Shown: in pieces, positions 2,625-10,200 of the stretch
Numbering within the stretch: position 1 is the first letter of the stretch
How the letters are laid out: each line of letters opens with the position of its first letter
NCBI RefSeq assembly: GCF_004402495.1
Contig: NZ_SOFH01000008.1
Location: 62,001 to 126,000, forward strand
Length of the DNA: 64,000 nucleotides
Origin: Cryobacterium sp. HLT2-28
Lineage (GTDB): Bacteria > Actinomycetota > Actinomycetes > Actinomycetales > Microbacteriaceae
Direction of reading: 5' to 3'
Position numbers and translations under genes: made by a program
Notes under the pieces: model-generated
What the model was told of the DNA's origin: nothing
The model's database searches: none
Seen by the model: only the letters and a program-made list of their open reading frames with translations

Positions 2625-3959
2625 ATGAACTCGCGTCGCTCCTGGTTGATCTTCTCCATCGGGTCGTTCGCGTACCTGTCCGCCGTGCTGCAACGTTCCT
2701 CGCTGGGCGTTGCCGGGGTCGCGGCGACGGAACGCTTCGGCGGCTCGGCCGCCGTGCTCTCCAGCCTCGCGGTCGTGCAGCTTGTCGTCTACGCCGCCGC
2801 CCAGGTTCCGGTGGGCGTGCTGATCGACCGCTACGGTCCCCGGGTGCTCGTCATCTCCGGCACCGCGCTGATGGTCGGCGGGCAGCTCACCCTGGCCTTC
2901 GCGCCGACGATCGGCGTCGCCGTGGTCGGCCGGATCCTCGTCGGGGCCGGGGACGCGACGATCTTCATCTCCATGATCCGGCTGATCGGCTCCTGGTTCA
3001 CCGGCCGGAGCGTTCCGCAGCTCTCCCAGTGGCTGGGCAATATCGGCCAGCTGGGCCAGGTCATGTCTGCGGTGCCTCTGGCCTGGGTGCTGCACACCTG
3101 GGGCTGGACGGCCGCGTTCGTGTCAGCGGCATCCGTTGCTCTCGTGGCGCTCGTCGTGGTGATCGTCGTCGTGCAGGACCGGCCGGCCGGCGTTCCGGCG
3201 GAGGATCGTCCGGCCAGCTGGGCTGCCGCGCTCGCCCTGCTGAAGCACAGTTTCAAACGACCGGGAACCCAGCTGGGATTCTGGTCCCACTATGTGACCC
3301 AGTCCTCGGGAACCGTTTTCAGCCTTCTCTGGGGTTTCCCGTTCATGGTCTACGGCCTCGGCTATGACCCGTCCCTCGCGGCCGGGATGCTGATGGTCCT
3401 GGTCGGGGCGGGCGTGATCGCCGGACCCATCCTCGGAATCCTGACGGCCCGCTACCCGCTGCGGCGCAGCAACATTGTTCTCGCCGTGGTCGCGCTGATG
3501 TTCACGGCGTGGGCACTCGTCCTGCTCTGGCCGGCGACGCCCCCGATGTGGCTGGTGATCGTGTTGCTGGTCGCCCTGGGCATCGGCGGACCGGGTTCGC
3601 TGATCGGTTTCGATTTCGCCCGCACCTTCAATCCGCAGCGGAGCCACGGCTCCGCCAACGGAGTCGTCAACGTGGGCGGGTTCACCGCGAGCTTCGTGAT
3701 GGTGTACCTGGTCGGCCTGTTGCTCGACCTTCAGGACGGGTGGCGTGTCGCCGCCGGCGCAGCCAGCGACCTGTACTCGCTCGACTCGTTCCGGGTGGCG
3801 TTCTCCGTGCAGTTCCTGGTCGTCGGACTGGGGGTGGTCTTCCTGCTGCGGGCCAGGGCGCGCACGCGCCGGCAGCTCTCCGACGACGAGGGGATCGAAG
3901 TCGCCCCGATCTGGGTGGCGGCGGCCCGCGCGTGGCGCCGGCGGCGGCGGCCGGAATAG
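2625..3959 (+). CDS. Major facilitator superfamily permease
   Basis: This 444-residue inner-membrane protein has about 12 hydrophobic segments in two halves, separated by a charged loop near residues 185-210. The MFS motif A is visible as [10 protein letters not shown] at about residues 64-73, between the second and third helices. The substrate cannot be told from the sequence; the overall pattern suits an organic-anion or sugar-type transporter. It stands alone after the PAC2 gene, and a 230-bp gap separates it from the sigma-factor gene. Family is secure, substrate unknown. Confidence 0.85.
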
Positions 3960-3997
3960 GATGCGCCTGGCTTGCCTCATACACAAAGCATGCAATA

Positions 3998-4045
3998 ATT
4001 GTCAATAGGGCCCGTTCTGGTCCTGGGAGTATCGACAATCTTGTC
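3998..4045. promoter_or_regulatory. GACAA/TTGTC half-site cluster upstream of sigA
   Basis: ATTGTCAATA (3998-4007) and TATCGACAAT (4030-4039) form an imperfect inverted repeat. GACAA-TC-TTGTC (4034-4045) is a perfect one. They lie just upstream of the sigA promoter and could bind a regulator; none can be named. Confidence 0.3.
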
Positions 4046-4064
4046 GTTGCGATTAGCCCGGGAC

Positions 4065-4093
4065 TTGACATGGGTCCTAGTACTGCCCAAAAT
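4065..4093 (+). promoter_or_regulatory. Promoter of principal sigma factor gene
   Basis: A perfect TTGACA -35 (4065-4070), a 17-bp spacer and CAAAAT (4088-4093) as -10. Transcription would start near 4100, leaving a leader of about 90 nt before sigA. Confidence 0.6.
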
Positions 4094-4189
4094 CCACACT
4101 GCCCAGGTGTTGGACCGGCCAGCTCCACTTCGGCCGTTTCGACCCGGCAGCGCCGCCGGCGACAGCGCCACGGCATGAGAGGTGTTCGA

Positions 4190-5557
<1,368 letters not shown>

Positions 5558-5565
5558 GCGGCCGC

Positions 5566-6834
5566 GTGCGCTACGCACCGGCGATCCTCGTCGGCAGGGT
5601 TGTTCGGGTCCTGGCGAGATGGCGGAAACCGGGCGGGGGATCAGCGGTCCCCGGTCTCGTCGTCAACACCATCGCTCCGGGATTCCTGTCCCGCACCCTG
5701 AACGGCTTCCCCGGCGGACTGGTCATCGTGACCGGCTCGAGCGGCAAGTCCACCACCACGAAGATGCTGGTTGCCGCTCTCCGGGCGCACGGCCTGGGCG
5801 TGTTCACGAACGAGTCGACGGCCAACATCAGCCAGGGGCTCACCTCGGCGCTGCTTGAGCAGGCCAGCCTGGCCGGCCGGATCAGCGGCGACGTGGCCGT
5901 GCTGGAAATGGATGAAGGGCACGGCGCCCTGATCTCCGGGTCGCTGAAGCCCCGCGTCGTCGCGCTGACGAACGTGATGGTCGACCAGATCGATCGCTTC
6001 CACGATTCCGAGATGGTCGCGGCCATGCTCGGCAAGATCGCGTCCCGGGCCACCGGAACCGTCGTGGTGAATGCCGACGACCAGCACCTGGTGGACCTCG
6101 CTTCGCGCCTCGAGGGAGCCGTGGCCGTGTCCCGCTACGGCGTGTCCGCCGACGTCCTCGCGGCGAACCCGCGCGGGCTCGGCTACAGCGTGACGGCCGG
6201 CAACCGCCTCTCCCCCGCGGAGGGGATGCTCCTCACCACGGTCGACGGCCGCGACGCCACCGTGCTGGTGGACGGTGCCAGCTACGACCTGGGCCTACCC
6301 GCCCGCGGAACGCACTATGCCGTCGATGCGCTGACCGCCCTCAGCACCGCCCAGGCGGTCCTCGGCGAGCGTTTCGACCCTGCCGTGGCGGTCGCGGCCA
6401 TCTCGGCGATCCCGCCCGTTTTCGGCCGGGGCGAGATCGTCACGGTACGCGGCCGGAAGGTCGAATTCGTGCTCGTGCAAAACCCCGCGAGCTTCCAGCT
6501 CAACGTGGACAGCCTCGCGGCCGGAACCGACCAGATCCTGATCGCGATCGGTTCGGATGTCCGTGACCCGTCCTACTTCTGGCCGGTCGACACGTCCGGG
6601 CTTGGCCGGGTTCTCTTCGCCTCCGGCTCGAAGGCGCTGGAAATCGCCCTGCAGCTTGCCTACGACGACGTCGCCGTCGAGCGGATCGAGCCCGACCTCG
6701 GCCGCGCCCTCGACGAATTCCTCGCTCTCCCTGACCCGCGGATCGGACTGAAAACCATCATCTTCTCGGCCGACTCCATGCGCCGCACCCGCGCCCACCT
6801 CGGGCTCGTCTCCAACAAGGCAGGGCGGGAGTGA
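5566..6834 (+). CDS. murT: MurT-like Mur ligase subunit (DUF1727), no zinc ribbon
   Basis: MurT activates the alpha-carboxyl of D-Glu in lipid II so that GatD-derived ammonia can make D-isoglutamine. This 422-residue protein has the ATP P-loop TGSSGKSTTT (56-65), the Mur-ligase stretch TNVMVDQIDRF, and DPSYFWPVD, whose Asp334 matches the catalytic Asp of MurT. It contains no cysteine, so the four-Cys zinc ribbon of firmicute MurT is missing. The GTG at 5566 lies 8 bp after sigA and gives the normal N-terminus. Its stop overlaps the gatD start (TGATG), so the two are coupled. Because the partner lacks its nucleophile, the substrate may be a bridge amino acid instead of ammonia (inference). Confidence 0.85.
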   Translation: MRYAPAILVGRVVRVLARWRKPGGGSAVPGLVVNTIAPGFLSRTLNGFPGGLVIVTGSSGKSTTTKMLVAALRAHGLGVFTNESTANISQGLTSALLEQASLAGRISGDVAVLEMDEGHGALISGSLKPRVVALTNVMVDQIDRFHDSEMVAAMLGKIASRATGTVVVNADDQHLVDLASRLEGAVAVSRYGVSADVLAANPRGLGYSVTAGNRLSPAEGMLLTTVDGRDATVLVDGASYDLGLPARGTHYAVDALTALSTAQAVLGERFDPAVAVAAISAIPPVFGRGEIVTVRGRKVEFVLVQNPASFQLNVDSLAAGTDQILIAIGSDVRDPSYFWPVDTSGLGRVLFASGSKALEIALQLAYDDVAVERIEPDLGRALDEFLALPDPRIGLKTIIFSADSMRRTRAHLGLVSNKAGRE

Positions 6835-7574
6835 TGCGAGCGCTCACCATCGTCTCCGTCCTGCCCGAACTCCTCGGCACGAACGGCGACGCCGCGAACG
6901 CCCGGGTGCTCGCCCAGCGCGCCCGTTGGGCCGGTGTCGACGCCGAAATCATTCCGGTGCGCACGGCCGCCGATCTGCCCGAGCAGATCGACCTCGTCGT
7001 GATCGGTTCAGGCTCCGACACCGAGCTGGTCGCGGTGCGCGACATCCTCGCCACGATGACGGAGCAACTCCGCGCCTGGTGCACGGCGGGAATCCCCATC
7101 CTCGCCGTCGGCACCGGATGGGAACTGCTCAGCTGGGGCATCGAGCTCGGTGACGGCACCGTCGTCGAGGGCCTCGGAATCGTCACGGGCCGCGCGGTTC
7201 CCCGGTCCGCACGGGTGACGGACGATCTCATCGTCGACTCCCGTTTCGGCAGACTGGTCGGCTTCGAGAACCACGCCCGCGACTACGTCGGCGGCGAGGC
7301 GTCACCACTCGGCCGGGTTCGATCCGGAACGGGAAACGGCGCTGCCCGTGGCGAAACCGGTGTGGAGGGCCTCGTCATGGGGAACCTCGTCTGCACCCAC
7401 CTGCACGGACCGGTGCTGGCGCGGAACCCTTCCCTCGCCGACCACCTGCTCAGCACGGCCCTGGCGCGCGCCGGCGCGGAGTACGTTCCGGGTGCACGAG
7501 CCGTCGCAGTCGACGAGACAGCGAAAGCCGGGCGCAATCAGCTTGCCGTGGCGTTGGGCCTCACCGCGGAGTAA
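6834..7574 (+). CDS. gatD: GatD-like class I amidotransferase, catalytic Cys replaced by Gly
   Basis: GatD is the glutaminase of the MurT/GatD lipid II isoglutaminyl synthase. The 247-residue fold is recognisable: GSGSDTEL, EGLGIVTG, VGFENHARD and CTHLHGPVL match the family, with the catalytic His as His191. The nucleophile elbow, normally ICGGYQ, reads VGTGWE (residues 92-97): Gly93 stands where the catalytic Cys should be. The only cysteines (Cys83 and Cys187) are not in the elbow. The protein is thus predicted to be unable to hydrolyse glutamine by the usual mechanism. The ATG at 6834 overlaps the murT stop by one base. The fold assignment is firm; the changed function is inference. Confidence 0.85.
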   Translation: MRALTIVSVLPELLGTNGDAANARVLAQRARWAGVDAEIIPVRTAADLPEQIDLVVIGSGSDTELVAVRDILATMTEQLRAWCTAGIPILAVGTGWELLSWGIELGDGTVVEGLGIVTGRAVPRSARVTDDLIVDSRFGRLVGFENHARDYVGGEASPLGRVRSGTGNGAARGETGVEGLVMGNLVCTHLHGPVLARNPSLADHLLSTALARAGAEYVPGARAVAVDETAKAGRNQLAVALGLTAE

Positions 7575-7693: not shown

Positions 7694-7945
7694 CTAGGAG
7701 CGCTGGTCCTCGAGAAGTCGGCTCGACTCGTCGTGCCAGCTCTCGGCGATCGCCGCGAGCTTCTCCTGGTGCTTGCGGCCGTGGTGGGCGCAGAACATCA
7801 GTTCGCTGTTGTTGACGACGACTCGGATGTAGGCCTGGGCGCCGCACGCATCGCAGCGGTCGGCCGCGGTGAGCTGGTGAGGGGCGCTCTGCCCGTCGAC
7901 GGAACTTTGGTCGATGGCACCATTTCCGGTTGCGATCTGGGACAT
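7694..7945 (-). CDS. DUF7455-type small zinc-ribbon-like protein
   Basis: This 83-residue protein is of a type conserved next to sigA and topoisomerase genes in actinobacteria. It has CDACG near residue 31 and CAHH near residue 52, a Cys/His set that suits one zinc ion. The C-terminus is a short charged helix. The ATG at 7945 has a strong GGAGG ribosome site. It is convergent with gatD and divergent from parE. Function unknown. Confidence 0.8.
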   Translation of the reverse strand: MSQIATGNGAIDQSSVDGQSAPHQLTAADRCDACGAQAYIRVVVNNSELMFCAHHGRKHQEKLAAIAESWHDESSRLLEDQRS

Positions 7946-7960
7946 GTTTTCCTCCTCCAG

Positions 7961-7981
7961 ACTGATACCAAGTGATACCAA
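7961..7981. repeat. Tandem TGATACCAA repeat upstream of DUF7455 gene
   Basis: TGATACCAA occurs at 7963-7971 and again at 7973-7981, a 10-bp period, next to TTAAAT on the minus strand, which could be the -10 of the DUF7455 gene. A helical-period repeat at a promoter suggests a regulator site. Confidence 0.35.
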
Positions 7982-8104
7982 TTTAACCTGTGCTCCATGT
8001 AAACACGGTCCGCCCCGGTTTACGACTCCGTTTGGTTGCATTTCGCTCACCGCGTAGACGTTCTGGGCAGGGTGTTGCTGGGGAGCCAGGCGCGTTCCGG
8101 TCGG

Positions 8105-8110
8105 TATTCT
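8105..8110 (+). promoter_or_regulatory. Predicted -10 box of parE
   Basis: TATTCT ends 8 nt before the parE GTG. No ribosome site precedes the start, so a leaderless mRNA is likely. Confidence 0.4.
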
Positions 8111-8118
8111 TGACAGTT

Positions 8119-10200
8119 GTGAGCTCTTCAGACTATTCCGCACGCCACCTGTCGGTCCTCGAGGGGCTCGAGGCGGTTCGCAAGCGCCCCGGCATGTACA
8201 TCGGTTCGACCGACTCGCGCGGTCTGATGCACTGCCTCTGGGAAATCATCGACAACTCGGTCGACGAGGCGCTGGGCGGATTCGGTTCCCGGATCGACAT
8301 CGTCCTGCACCCGGACGAGAGCGTCGAGGTCAGGGACACCGCCCGCGGCGTTCCGGTGGACATCGAGCCCAAGACCGGCCTGACCGGGGTTGAGGTGGTC
8401 TTCACCAAGCTGCACGCCGGCGGAAAGTTCGGCAGCGGATCGTATGCCGCCTCCGGCGGCCTGCACGGCGTCGGCGCATCCGTCGTGAACGCCCTGTCCG
8501 AGCGACTCGACGTAGAGGTCGACCGTGACGGCAAGACCTGGGCGATGTCGTTCCACCGCGGCGAACCCGGGATCTTTGCGGATACAGGGGAGAAGAGCCC
8601 CGACGCGCCCTTCACCCCGTTCGAGAAGCAGAGCGAACTCCGCGTGATCGGCAAGGTCAAGCGCGGGGTCACCGGTACCCGGGTGCGCTACTGGGCCGAC
8701 CGGCAGATCTTCACCAGGGGAGCCGCCTTCCAGACTGAGGAGCTCCTCGACCGGGCCAGGCAGACCGCGTTCCTCGTTCCCGGCCTCGCCATCGACATCG
8801 ACGACCGGCGCAGCGCCGAAGCGGTACACGAGTCGTTCCAGTTCGAGGGCGGCATTTCCGAGTTCGTCGACCACCTCGCAACCGACACCCCCATCACCGA
8901 CACCTGGCGGCTGTCCGGGAACGGCAGCTTCACCGAGACCGTCCCTGTCCTGACCGACAAGGGCGCCATGGTGCCGACCGAACTGACCCGGGACTGCGCC
9001 GTCGACATCGCCCTGCGCTGGGGCACGGGCTACGACACCGTCGTCCGCAGCTTCGTGAACATCATCGCCACGCCGAAGGGCGGCACCCATCAGGCCGGCT
9101 TCGACGCCGGGCTGCTGAAATTCCTGCGGTCCCAGGTGGAGTTGAACGCCCGCCGCCTCAAGATGGGTTCCGACAAGCTGGAGAAGGACGACGTGATGGC
9201 CGGCCTGACCGCCGTGCTGAACGTGCGGCTCCCCGAACCACAATTCGAGGGCCAGACCAAGGAGGTCCTGGGCACACCGGCCGTGCGCGCCATCGTCGCC
9301 AACGTCGTCGCCCAGGCCATGAACGAGCGTTTCATCTCCACGAAGCGTGACGACAAGACCCAGGCGGCGGTCGTGCTGGACAAGATCGTCGCCGAGATGA
9401 AGTCCCGCATTTCCGCGCGGGCCCACAAGGAAACCCAGCGGCGCAAGAACGCGCTCGAGAGCTCGTCGCTGCCGGCGAAGCTGGTCGACTGCCGCAGCAA
9501 CGACGTGACCACGAGCGAGCTGTTCATCGTCGAAGGTGACTCTGCGCTCGGCACCGCGAAGCTCGCCAGGGACAGCGAGCACCAGGCTCTCCTGCCGATC
9601 CGGGGCAAGATCCTCAACGTGCAGAAGGCCTCGGTGTCCGACATGCTCTCCAACCTGGAGTGCGCGTCGATCATCCAGGTCATCGGCGCCGGCTCCGGGC
9701 GCAGCTTCGACCTGTCGGCCGCCCGGTACGGCAAGGTCATCATCATGAGTGACGCGGATGTCGACGGCGCCCACATCCGCACCCTCCTGCTGACCCTCTT
9801 CTTCCGGTACATGCGGCCGATGATCACCGAGGGCCGAGTCTTCGCGGCGGTGCCCCCGCTGCACCGGGTGGTCGTGATGAACCCGGGCAGCAAGCCGAAC
9901 GAGACCATCTACACCTATTCGGAGCCCGAACTGCACAGCGTGCTCGCCGGGTTGAAGAAGAGCGGCAAGCGTTACCAGGACCCGATCCAGCGGTACAAGG
10001 GGCTCGGCGAGATGGATGCCGACCAGCTCGCCACCACGACCATGGAACGCGCGCACCGCACCCTCCGCCGGGTCAGGGTGGCCGACGCGGAGATGGCAGG
10101 AAAGGTATTCGAACTCCTGATGGGCAACGACGTCGCCCCACGCAAGGAATTCATCATCGACAGCTCGGACAAGCTCAGCCGCGACCGGATCGACGTCTAA
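8119..10200 (+). CDS. parE: Type IIA topoisomerase subunit B (topoisomerase IV ParE type)
   Basis: This ATPase subunit of a type II topoisomerase acts with ParC (11015-13501) in chromosome decatenation. The 693-residue protein has the GHKL ATPase domain with EIIDNSVDE (42-50). The next ATP motif reads DTARG where DNGRG or DDGRG is common. The TOPRIM domain follows with IVEGDSALG and DADVDGAHI, and the C-terminus has QRYKGLGEM. The GTG at 8119 begins the conserved sequence; the longer frame upstream is not coding. Its position beside sigA matches parE in Streptomyces, which supports ParE over GyrB. The 3' end overlaps the convergent SDR by 3 bp. Confidence 0.9.
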   Translation: MSSSDYSARHLSVLEGLEAVRKRPGMYIGSTDSRGLMHCLWEIIDNSVDEALGGFGSRIDIVLHPDESVEVRDTARGVPVDIEPKTGLTGVEVVFTKLHAGGKFGSGSYAASGGLHGVGASVVNALSERLDVEVDRDGKTWAMSFHRGEPGIFADTGEKSPDAPFTPFEKQSELRVIGKVKRGVTGTRVRYWADRQIFTRGAAFQTEELLDRARQTAFLVPGLAIDIDDRRSAEAVHESFQFEGGISEFVDHLATDTPITDTWRLSGNGSFTETVPVLTDKGAMVPTELTRDCAVDIALRWGTGYDTVVRSFVNIIATPKGGTHQAGFDAGLLKFLRSQVELNARRLKMGSDKLEKDDVMAGLTAVLNVRLPEPQFEGQTKEVLGTPAVRAIVANVVAQAMNERFISTKRDDKTQAAVVLDKIVAEMKSRISARAHKETQRRKNALESSSLPAKLVDCRSNDVTTSELFIVEGDSALGTAKLARDSEHQALLPIRGKILNVQKASVSDMLSNLECASIIQVIGAGSGRSFDLSAARYGKVIIMSDADVDGAHIRTLLLTLFFRYMRPMITEGRVFAAVPPLHRVVVMNPGSKPNETIYTYSEPELHSVLAGLKKSGKRYQDPIQRYKGLGEMDADQLATTTMERAHRTLRRVRVADAEMAGKVFELLMGNDVAPRKEFIIDSSDKLSRDRIDV

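Follow-up and report, generated by a model that had tools for sequence, protein, structure and literature searches.

The closest described relatives of the locus examined here are the two subunits of lipid II isoglutaminyl synthase, the Mur ligase MurT and the glutaminase GatD, known from Staphylococcus aureus, Streptococcus pneumoniae, and mycobacteria. In type-B cell walls, the alpha-carboxyl of D-Glu carries the cross-bridge, and we know of no described ligase family for this bridge. A search of open-licence papers in PMC, covering titles and the starts of abstracts, likewise returned no paper that deals, for Microbacteriaceae, with a GatD without its cysteine, a ligase building the type-B bridge, or a wall ligase of the CofE type. 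Here we analyze a MurT-GatD-like pair encoded in a 64,000-nucleotide stretch of Cryobacterium sp. HLT2-28 (NZ_SOFH01000008.1; this whole stretch is called the window, and coordinates refer to it unless another locus is named), in which GatD carries a glycine in place of its nucleophile cysteine. The sequences suggest, to a degree that leaves belief and doubt in balance, that this glutaminase-free MurT-GatD paralogue would ligate a free amino compound, most likely the first amino acid of the bridge, onto the D-Glu alpha-carboxyl.

Published mutants, cited here from excerpts of the respective papers, define which residues matter in the described enzyme. In S. aureus GatD, the C94A, H189A, and R128A variants have no glutaminase activity, and Arg128 binds glutamine (PMC5871853), while C94G and C94S abolish glutamine-dependent amidation (PMC6113224, PMC3266927). 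S. aureus MurT combined with GatD C94G loses glutamine use yet keeps the use of NH3 at pH 8.5, and MurT alone is inactive (PMC3266927). Between the two subunits, GatD Tyr30 (equivalent to S. aureus Tyr17) is listed among the residues blocking passage to MurT, and MurT Arg135 flanks the MurT opening and closes it in one of two models; within MurT, the Asn equivalent to Asn85 is in contact with the acceptor carboxylate in related Mur ligases, and the N85A variant of S. pneumoniae MurT/GatD is inactive (PMC6085368).

The gatD-like gene of the window (6834..7574, forward strand; ATG start at 6834, stop codon through 7574; 246 amino acids (aa); PF07685 at 56.4 bits) directly follows a murT-like Mur ligase gene (5566..6834, forward strand; 422 aa; Mur_ligase_M at 57.4 bits), and the murT stop codon (6832-6834) and the gatD start share one base. 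The gatD boundaries and the coupling to murT had been proposed in an earlier, sequence-only reading and are borne out. Pfam recognized Mur_ligase_M in MurT and GATase_3 in GatD, with MurT_C borderline (24.2 bits in a protein scan and 27.3 bits in a genome search, for a cut-off of 25). Both proteins missed the NCBIfam equivalog cut-offs (112 vs 450 and 82 vs 400 bits for GatD; 78 and 72 vs 800 bits for MurT), in scans that included no Cys-containing actinobacterial control. The closest solved structures are the MurT and GatD chains of S. aureus, S. pneumoniae, and Streptococcus pyogenes, and an AlphaFold2 model of the window GatD (mean predicted local distance difference test score 86.4; predicted template modelling (TM) score 0.88) matched the S. 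aureus GatD chains of 5n9m, 6gs2, and 6h5e with TM scores of 0.80-0.82. The rest of the GatD fold is kept, as first proposed: VGFENH and THLHGP are present, and so are the equivalents of S. aureus R128 and H189, the latter as His191 (codon CAC, 7404..7406, forward strand). The elbow itself reads ILAVGTGWELL, and alignment to S. aureus GatD confirmed that Gly93 (codon GGC, 7110..7112, forward strand) occupies the position of Cys94. The motif against which this substitution was originally judged, ICGGYQ, is correct for S. aureus, but the Cys-containing Actinobacteria compared here mostly read [IV]CG[LM]YQ or [IV]CA..Q. In the window MurT, the P-loop, Asn, and Glu of the ligase site are kept, gate Arg135 (S. 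pneumoniae numbering) is replaced by Val139, and the Cys4 zinc ribbon, reported from only a subset of bacteria (PMC6113224), is absent.

Loss of the cysteine is widespread in the family. Across a sample of 149 Microbacteriaceae genomes, 115 yielded a GatD match to the window protein, and the elbows, read in all 115, comprised 90 genomes with a Cys-less GatD only, 3 with both a Cys-less and a Cys-containing GatD (G050, G060, and G113), 14 with a Cys-containing GatD only, 6 with a THN elbow, and 2 with an FGTS elbow; the Cys-less pair is present in 93 of the 149. Among the 124 unique family GatDs, the Cys site is Gly, Ala, Asn, Ser, or Thr in 101, His in 6, and Cys in 17, one of the family loci encoding a GatD 94% identical to that of Leucobacter tardus. 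The 101 Cys-less sequences (Gly in 74, Ala in 17, Asn in 4, Ser in 4, and Thr in 2) take in two FGTS sequences, two second copies (L110, L116), and four from an order-level search; one row (L293, 33.5 bits) was left out as no GatD. Outside the family, the cysteine was kept in 125 of 125 GatDs read (106 unique and 19 more), 64 of which came from a scan with a Cys-containing profile; of the matches from two further searches, only part was read. The sequence-only reading had asked whether the cysteine is also missing from type-A species that amidate D-Glu; no such loss appeared among these 125, whose wall types were not part of the comparison.

Of the 34 family genomes without a GatD match, 27 have no real MurT, their best E (1e-13 or weaker than 1e-23) being on a par with other Mur ligases; G029 is THN, G103 is THN by score only, and G005 is apparently broken. 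The remaining four are G035, cut by a contig end, and G011, G087, and G143. These last three are small genomes of one genus in which the MurT match (400-435 bits) has stops in or near it and GatD is recognized only in part. Although murTgatD has been called universally present in Actinobacteria (PMC6085368), the 27 genomes without a real MurT contradict this.

The Cys-less pairs are under purifying selection. The ratio of non-synonymous to synonymous substitution rates (dN/dS) in 12 close Cys-less pairs was 0.05-0.24 for GatD and 0.01-0.13 for MurT, and in five Cys-containing pairs 0.10-0.22 and 0.04-0.26, respectively. In a GatD tree of 184 loci, a single branch (local support 0.989) split 107 non-Cys from 77 Cys-containing sequences, and a smaller IQ-TREE run placed one change at the Cys site. 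Chance or a sequencing error behind Gly93 is ruled out by the 93 genomes, this one split, and the purifying selection. In the MurT tree, the 99 Cys-less MurTs formed one group (support 0.909), with the eight THN and FGTS MurTs outside it on the Cys-containing side; the cysteine may thus have been lost twice, or THN may be a chimera or a long-branch effect.

The chromosomal position separates the two forms as well. The pair is immediately preceded by the end of an RpoD gene in 94 of 101 Cys-less loci and in 6/6 THN loci, and in 0 of 137 Cys-containing loci (17 from the family, 14 Leucobacter, and 106 other), of which 59 have a short flank upstream of MurT (little is visible there with flanks of 1.5-1.8 kb) and 78 have up to 3 kb. 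Given this different upstream neighbor, the Cys-less pair is therefore a paralogue (or an old transfer) in an rpoD / DUF7455-parE slot, not the amidotransferase gene mutated in place, and Cys-less and Cys-containing pairs coexist in the three genomes listed above. In the window, the left border of this slot is an rpoD-like primary sigma factor open reading frame (ORF; 3509..5557, forward strand; named by sequence reading, true start not fixed), whose stop ends 8 bases before the murT start. The right border is a small DUF7455-kind ORF (7694..8143, reverse strand; named from a relative at the same place, with an uncertain start and an upstream part that is perhaps non-coding), and the next gene after the slot is a gyrB/parE-like topoisomerase subunit ORF (7990..10200, forward strand; named by sequence reading, the true start probably being internal to the ORF). 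The THN loci (L141, L143-L147, L339), a second Cys-less MurT-GatD lineage, sit in the same rpoD-parE slot: in their GatDs, His takes the place of the Cys, and Ile or Leu that of His189 (lost in 6/6), and their MurTs have Asn for Asp349 in 6/6 and both CxxC pairs of the zinc ribbon in five of six (one pair in L145).

The loss extends well beyond the nucleophile. Tyr17, Gly60, Cys94, Gln98, Arg128, Asn148, His149, Tyr187, and His189 are all invariant in the 137 unique Cys-containing GatDs. Of these, the 101 Cys-less GatDs never keep Tyr17 or, by definition, Cys94, and retain Tyr187 in 2, Gly60 in 5, Gln98 in 29, His189 in 68, His149 in 72, Asn148 in 82, and Arg128 in 93. On the MurT side, the P-loop Gly-Lys, Asn85, Glu108, and Asp349 are conserved without exception in the Cys-less pairs (99/99), while gate Arg135, present in 39/39 Cys-containing pairs, is found in 0/99. 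Given the published S. aureus mutants, glutamine-dependent activity would not be expected in Cys-less pairs. Because Tyr17 and gate Arg135 are both lost, we further infer that the way through the GatD site to MurT is more open, which would fit a free amine larger than ammonia.

Other family members hold a different ligase in this slot. When the rpoD-parE interval was inspected in the 27 genomes in which a MurT profile search found no real MurT, 20 contained a CofE-like gene of ~235 aa, directly adjoining rpoD in 19, with one other ORF intervening in G018. Of the other seven, G040 is cut by a contig end, G017, G047, G057, and G110 are empty, and G108 and G045 hold other DNA: an amino-acid ABC transporter in G108 (positions 635-2994 of locus L324; a genome with neither MurT nor CofE) and, in G045, an interval of the same size. 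Two CofE-like slot proteins were scanned and matched PF01996 F420_ligase (50.4 and 47.6 bits vs a cut-off of 25), but the slot proteins missed the F420 equivalog cut-off (28-30 vs 180.65 bits), and no solved structure matched the CofE-like profile at E 0.01. An ATPgrasp_ST gene lies beside most of them, usually on the opposite strand, some slots contain an alanine racemase (four full-length by Pfam and one more), and the slot of L314 contains a MurJ above the equivalog cut-off. With these neighbors, the CofE loci near the rpoD end (L305-L314, L317, L318, L321, L323, L325-L328, L330, L333, L369-L374) look like a peptidoglycan cassette.

The two ligase types are almost mutually exclusive. A strong CofE-like gene (>380 bits) was detected in 21 of the 149 genomes, namely in 21/27 without MurT and in 0/122 with MurT (Fisher 1.5e-20, uncorrected for kinship), and lies in the slot in all 20 readable genomes. 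An order-level addition gave the same picture: six genomes of two genera without a GatD match all have a strong CofE-like gene between rpoD and parE, and five sister genomes of these genera that carry the pair have no strong CofE. Because eight genera (g7, g9, g54, g55, g71, g73, g77, and g78) contain both kinds, repeated swaps between MurT-GatD and CofE in the slot are suggested. A strong ATP-grasp was found in 24 genomes, comprising 19/21 with CofE, 4/8 with THN (one of the eight assigned by score), and 1/93 with the Cys-less pair. A diverged CofE (158-160 bits) adjoins the Cys-less MurT-GatD in G049 and G112, in the latter in the order rpoD-CofE-MurT-GatD-parE (positions 1-6900 of L337; FGTS elbow), and this adjacency links the two ligase types to one pathway. 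Separately, a relocated slot system in G012 and G047 was considered and rejected, as the weak ATP-grasp matches there sit beside a glycerophosphotransferase, pointing to surface-glycopolymer genes; both loci (L335, 5362-13265; L336, 5615-10750) hold a glycerophosphotransferase, two ATPgrasp_ST genes, and a nucleotidyltransferase, and are probably surface-glycopolymer clusters.

CofE-like domains also occur beyond the family. In the order, 16 outside-family genomes among 198 searched encode such a domain (161-206 bits) in frames of ~800-1000 aa, and none of the 16 was among the genomes with a GatD match in a single-sequence GatD search, MurT not having been sought there. Five of the long proteins were scanned: three have AsnB domains (GATase_7 and Asn_synthase), one a partial glutaminase domain, and one no known domain. 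Among 12 that were read, the MCG at the N-terminus of the AsnB glutaminase is intact in 6 and has Ser for its Cys in 2, and no start of this domain is recognizable in 4. The CofE domain is C-terminal in these long proteins from other Micrococcales families (L356, L358-L368), and the AsnB Cys is replaced by Ser in L356 and L362. Outside the family, too, the CofE domain thus seems to substitute for MurT/GatD, in many cases joined to a glutaminase, which the Microbacteriaceae form does not carry. A CofE-like gene is also part of the S. pyogenes qim operon, described as serving wall modification (PMC13059722).

From these observations, a mechanism can be outlined. MurT, judged by its invariant residues, would bind ATP and the stem-peptide carboxylate and make an acyl phosphate, while GatD would no longer cut glutamine but be retained as the partner that activates MurT and lines a passage opened into it. 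The attacking amine would then be a free cytoplasmic amino compound in place of glutamine-derived ammonia, most likely the first amino acid of the type-B bridge on the D-Glu alpha-carboxyl, and the slot occupants (the Cys-less pair, the second Cys-less lineage, and a CofE-type ligase mostly accompanied by an ATP-grasp) would replace one another. By analogy, S. aureus C94G provides a precedent for a non-hydrolytic GatD that is still required, a precedent that would support an ammonia-using enzyme equally. The strongest hint that the amine donor in the family slot is not glutamine is that two unrelated ligases, both without a working glutaminase, share family and slot.

Several observations favor an amino acid as this donor. 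CofE-type enzymes (PF01996) ligate an amino acid to a carboxylate, so that the family interchangeable with MurT-GatD is one that adds amino acids; some slot neighbors are peptidoglycan genes; and the type-B alpha-carboxyl carries a bridge. In addition, the wall diamino acid varies by species inside Microbacterium (D-ornithine, L-lysine, or diaminobutyric acid; PMC10757982), just as the slot varies inside genera; one of these, g78, with five CofE and three MurT genomes, could conceivably be Microbacterium. The swap with an amino-acid-adding family, in a slot that also holds murJ or alanine racemase, favors an amino-acid ligase over decay. More tentatively, and with rather less than even confidence, the rpoD-parE slot might be a cassette locus for type-B bridge ligases in which at least three systems have been swapped, even inside genera, the choice among them setting the bridge (a single residue where MurT-GatD stands alone, two where CofE is joined by ATP-grasp); the window MurT-GatD would then be an amidotransferase turned amino-acid ligase by glutaminase loss.

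A number of results weigh against a bridge-adding role. Most directly, Leucobacter chironomi DSM 19883 and L. celer subsp. astrifaciens CBX151, both reported as type B (PMC4511665, PMC4804768), encode a Cys-containing GatD (L208 and L209, one real GatD each); neither a Cys-less pair nor a CofE-like match was found in 13 Leucobacter genomes, and the slot is empty in two genomes of the Leucobacter genus (G012 and G088). Either Leucobacter builds its bridge by another route, or the slot enzymes have a different function. The mutual exclusion is also softly broken: G049, G112, and G134 each hold a diverged CofE along with a Cys-less pair, that of G134 (131 bits) lying on another contig next to murJ. 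MurT and a strong CofE are both missing from six of the 149 genomes; H189 and Asp349, for which a pure scaffold would have no use, are mostly retained; and the fusions of CofE to AsnB-type amidotransferase domains outside the family point to amide formation from ammonia for the CofE domain there. Leucobacter and the six genomes without any candidate are what hold our confidence at an even balance, and with no real MurT in 27 of the 149 family genomes, the Cys-less pair cannot be the sole type-B bridge enzyme.

The sequence-only reading is thus partly supported. Its simple map of the site, with Cys for type A and Gly for type B walls, fails on Leucobacter, which combines a reported type-B wall and a Cys-containing pair with no slot ligase found. 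Its proposal that MurT/GatD became a bridge-adding ligase fits the lost glutaminase site, the intact ligase residues, and the swap with a CofE-type enzyme, and is weakened by the failure of that map and by the 27 genomes without a real MurT. As a separate observation on Leucobacter, records of Candidatus Saccharibacteria / Saccharimonadia contain Cys-containing GatDs that share 54-59% identity with the GatD of a Leucobacter-like genome (L236, L240, L244, L253, L267, L270, L276).

The pair could instead be an ammonia-only amidotransferase making D-isoglutamine from free NH3, like the engineered S. aureus GatD C94G, whose Cys-to-Gly replacement the window protein carries naturally. That enzyme keeps NH3-dependent amidation at pH 8.5 with its dead GatD still needed, but the S. 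aureus enzyme is reported not to use NH3 at pH 7.5 (PMC3266927), and the family pocket and gate are changed at many positions beyond the cysteine. Likewise, the AsnB domains fused to CofE outside the family would fit ammonia as the donor, whereas the slot CofE is a free-standing ligase with no glutaminase attached. The type-B alpha-carboxyl is moreover established to carry a bridge, and on balance we consider ammonia-only amidation unlikely.

We regard as unlikely, too, an accessory wall decoration, in which the slot ligases would add an amino acid to D-Glu or another wall carboxylate outside the cross-bridge. This role would accommodate the 6 of 149 genomes with neither MurT nor a strong CofE, the 14 of 149 with a Cys-containing pair only, the type-B wall of Leucobacter with no slot ligase found, and the presence of ATPgrasp_ST in an apparent surface-glycopolymer cluster as well; set against it, the presence of murJ and alanine racemase genes in some slots speaks for core peptidoglycan precursors, and the MurT acceptor residue is unchanged. 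It is very improbable that the complex is regulatory, with GatD as an amino acid sensor controlling MurT in wall synthesis: Arg128, which binds glutamine in S. aureus (PMC5871853), is kept in 93/101 and His189 in 68/101 Cys-less GatDs, but the THN lineage has lost His189 (6/6) and has Asn for Asp349 (6/6), and a CofE ligase with no GatD at all occupies the same slot. Finally, a relic decaying because type-B walls no longer amidate D-Glu is hardly credible, for although GatD evolves faster than MurT in Cys-less pairs, is recognized only in part in G011, G087, and G143, and 27/149 genomes lack a real MurT, the selection data (across 12 Cys-less pairs, GatD dN/dS of 0.05-0.24 and MurT dN/dS of 0.01-0.13) speak against decay, the pair is present in 93/149 genomes, and a missing MurT coincides with another ligase in 21/27.

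If a glutaminase-free MurT-GatD does act as an amino-acid ligase, it would matter on several counts. Type-B walls cross-link through the D-Glu alpha-carboxyl, and no enzyme for that bond was found in the literature searched; the slot would offer a short list of candidate bridge genes gathered at a single chromosomal position and exchanged naturally among relatives, and a possible route from amidotransferase to amino-acid ligase in which the glutaminase site is lost and the partner kept.

Compared with the known systems, the pair most resembles the MurT/GatD isoglutaminyl synthase, with which it has in common adjoining Mur ligase and GATase_3-fold subunits encoded by overlapping genes, and the window pair shares the MurT ATP and acceptor residues, GatD Arg128 and His189, and the overall GatD fold. 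It differs in the missing gate Arg135 and zinc ribbon, the other chromosomal locus, and NCBIfam scores far below cut-off, and nearly all Cys-less relatives lack the nucleophile Cys, the lid Tyr17, the oxyanion Gly60, and Tyr187. CofE, the F420-0:gamma-glutamyl ligase (PF01996), is a carboxylate-amine ligase that works through an acyl phosphate and has a fold unrelated to MurT/GatD, yet its relatives take the same slot in other family members; scoring 28-30 vs 181 bits against the equivalog cut-off, the slot form is no ordinary CofE of F420 biosynthesis. The engineered S. aureus MurT/GatD C94G shows the same nucleophile replacement with GatD still required as partner, but the rest of its pocket is intact and it is active only with NH3/NH4Cl at pH 8.5 (PMC3266927). 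Pseudomurein archaea, as described in the excerpted source, have a MurT-like ligase that likewise works without a glutaminase partner (PMC11915815), although GatD is absent there, whereas in the Cys-less pair it is kept and conserved.

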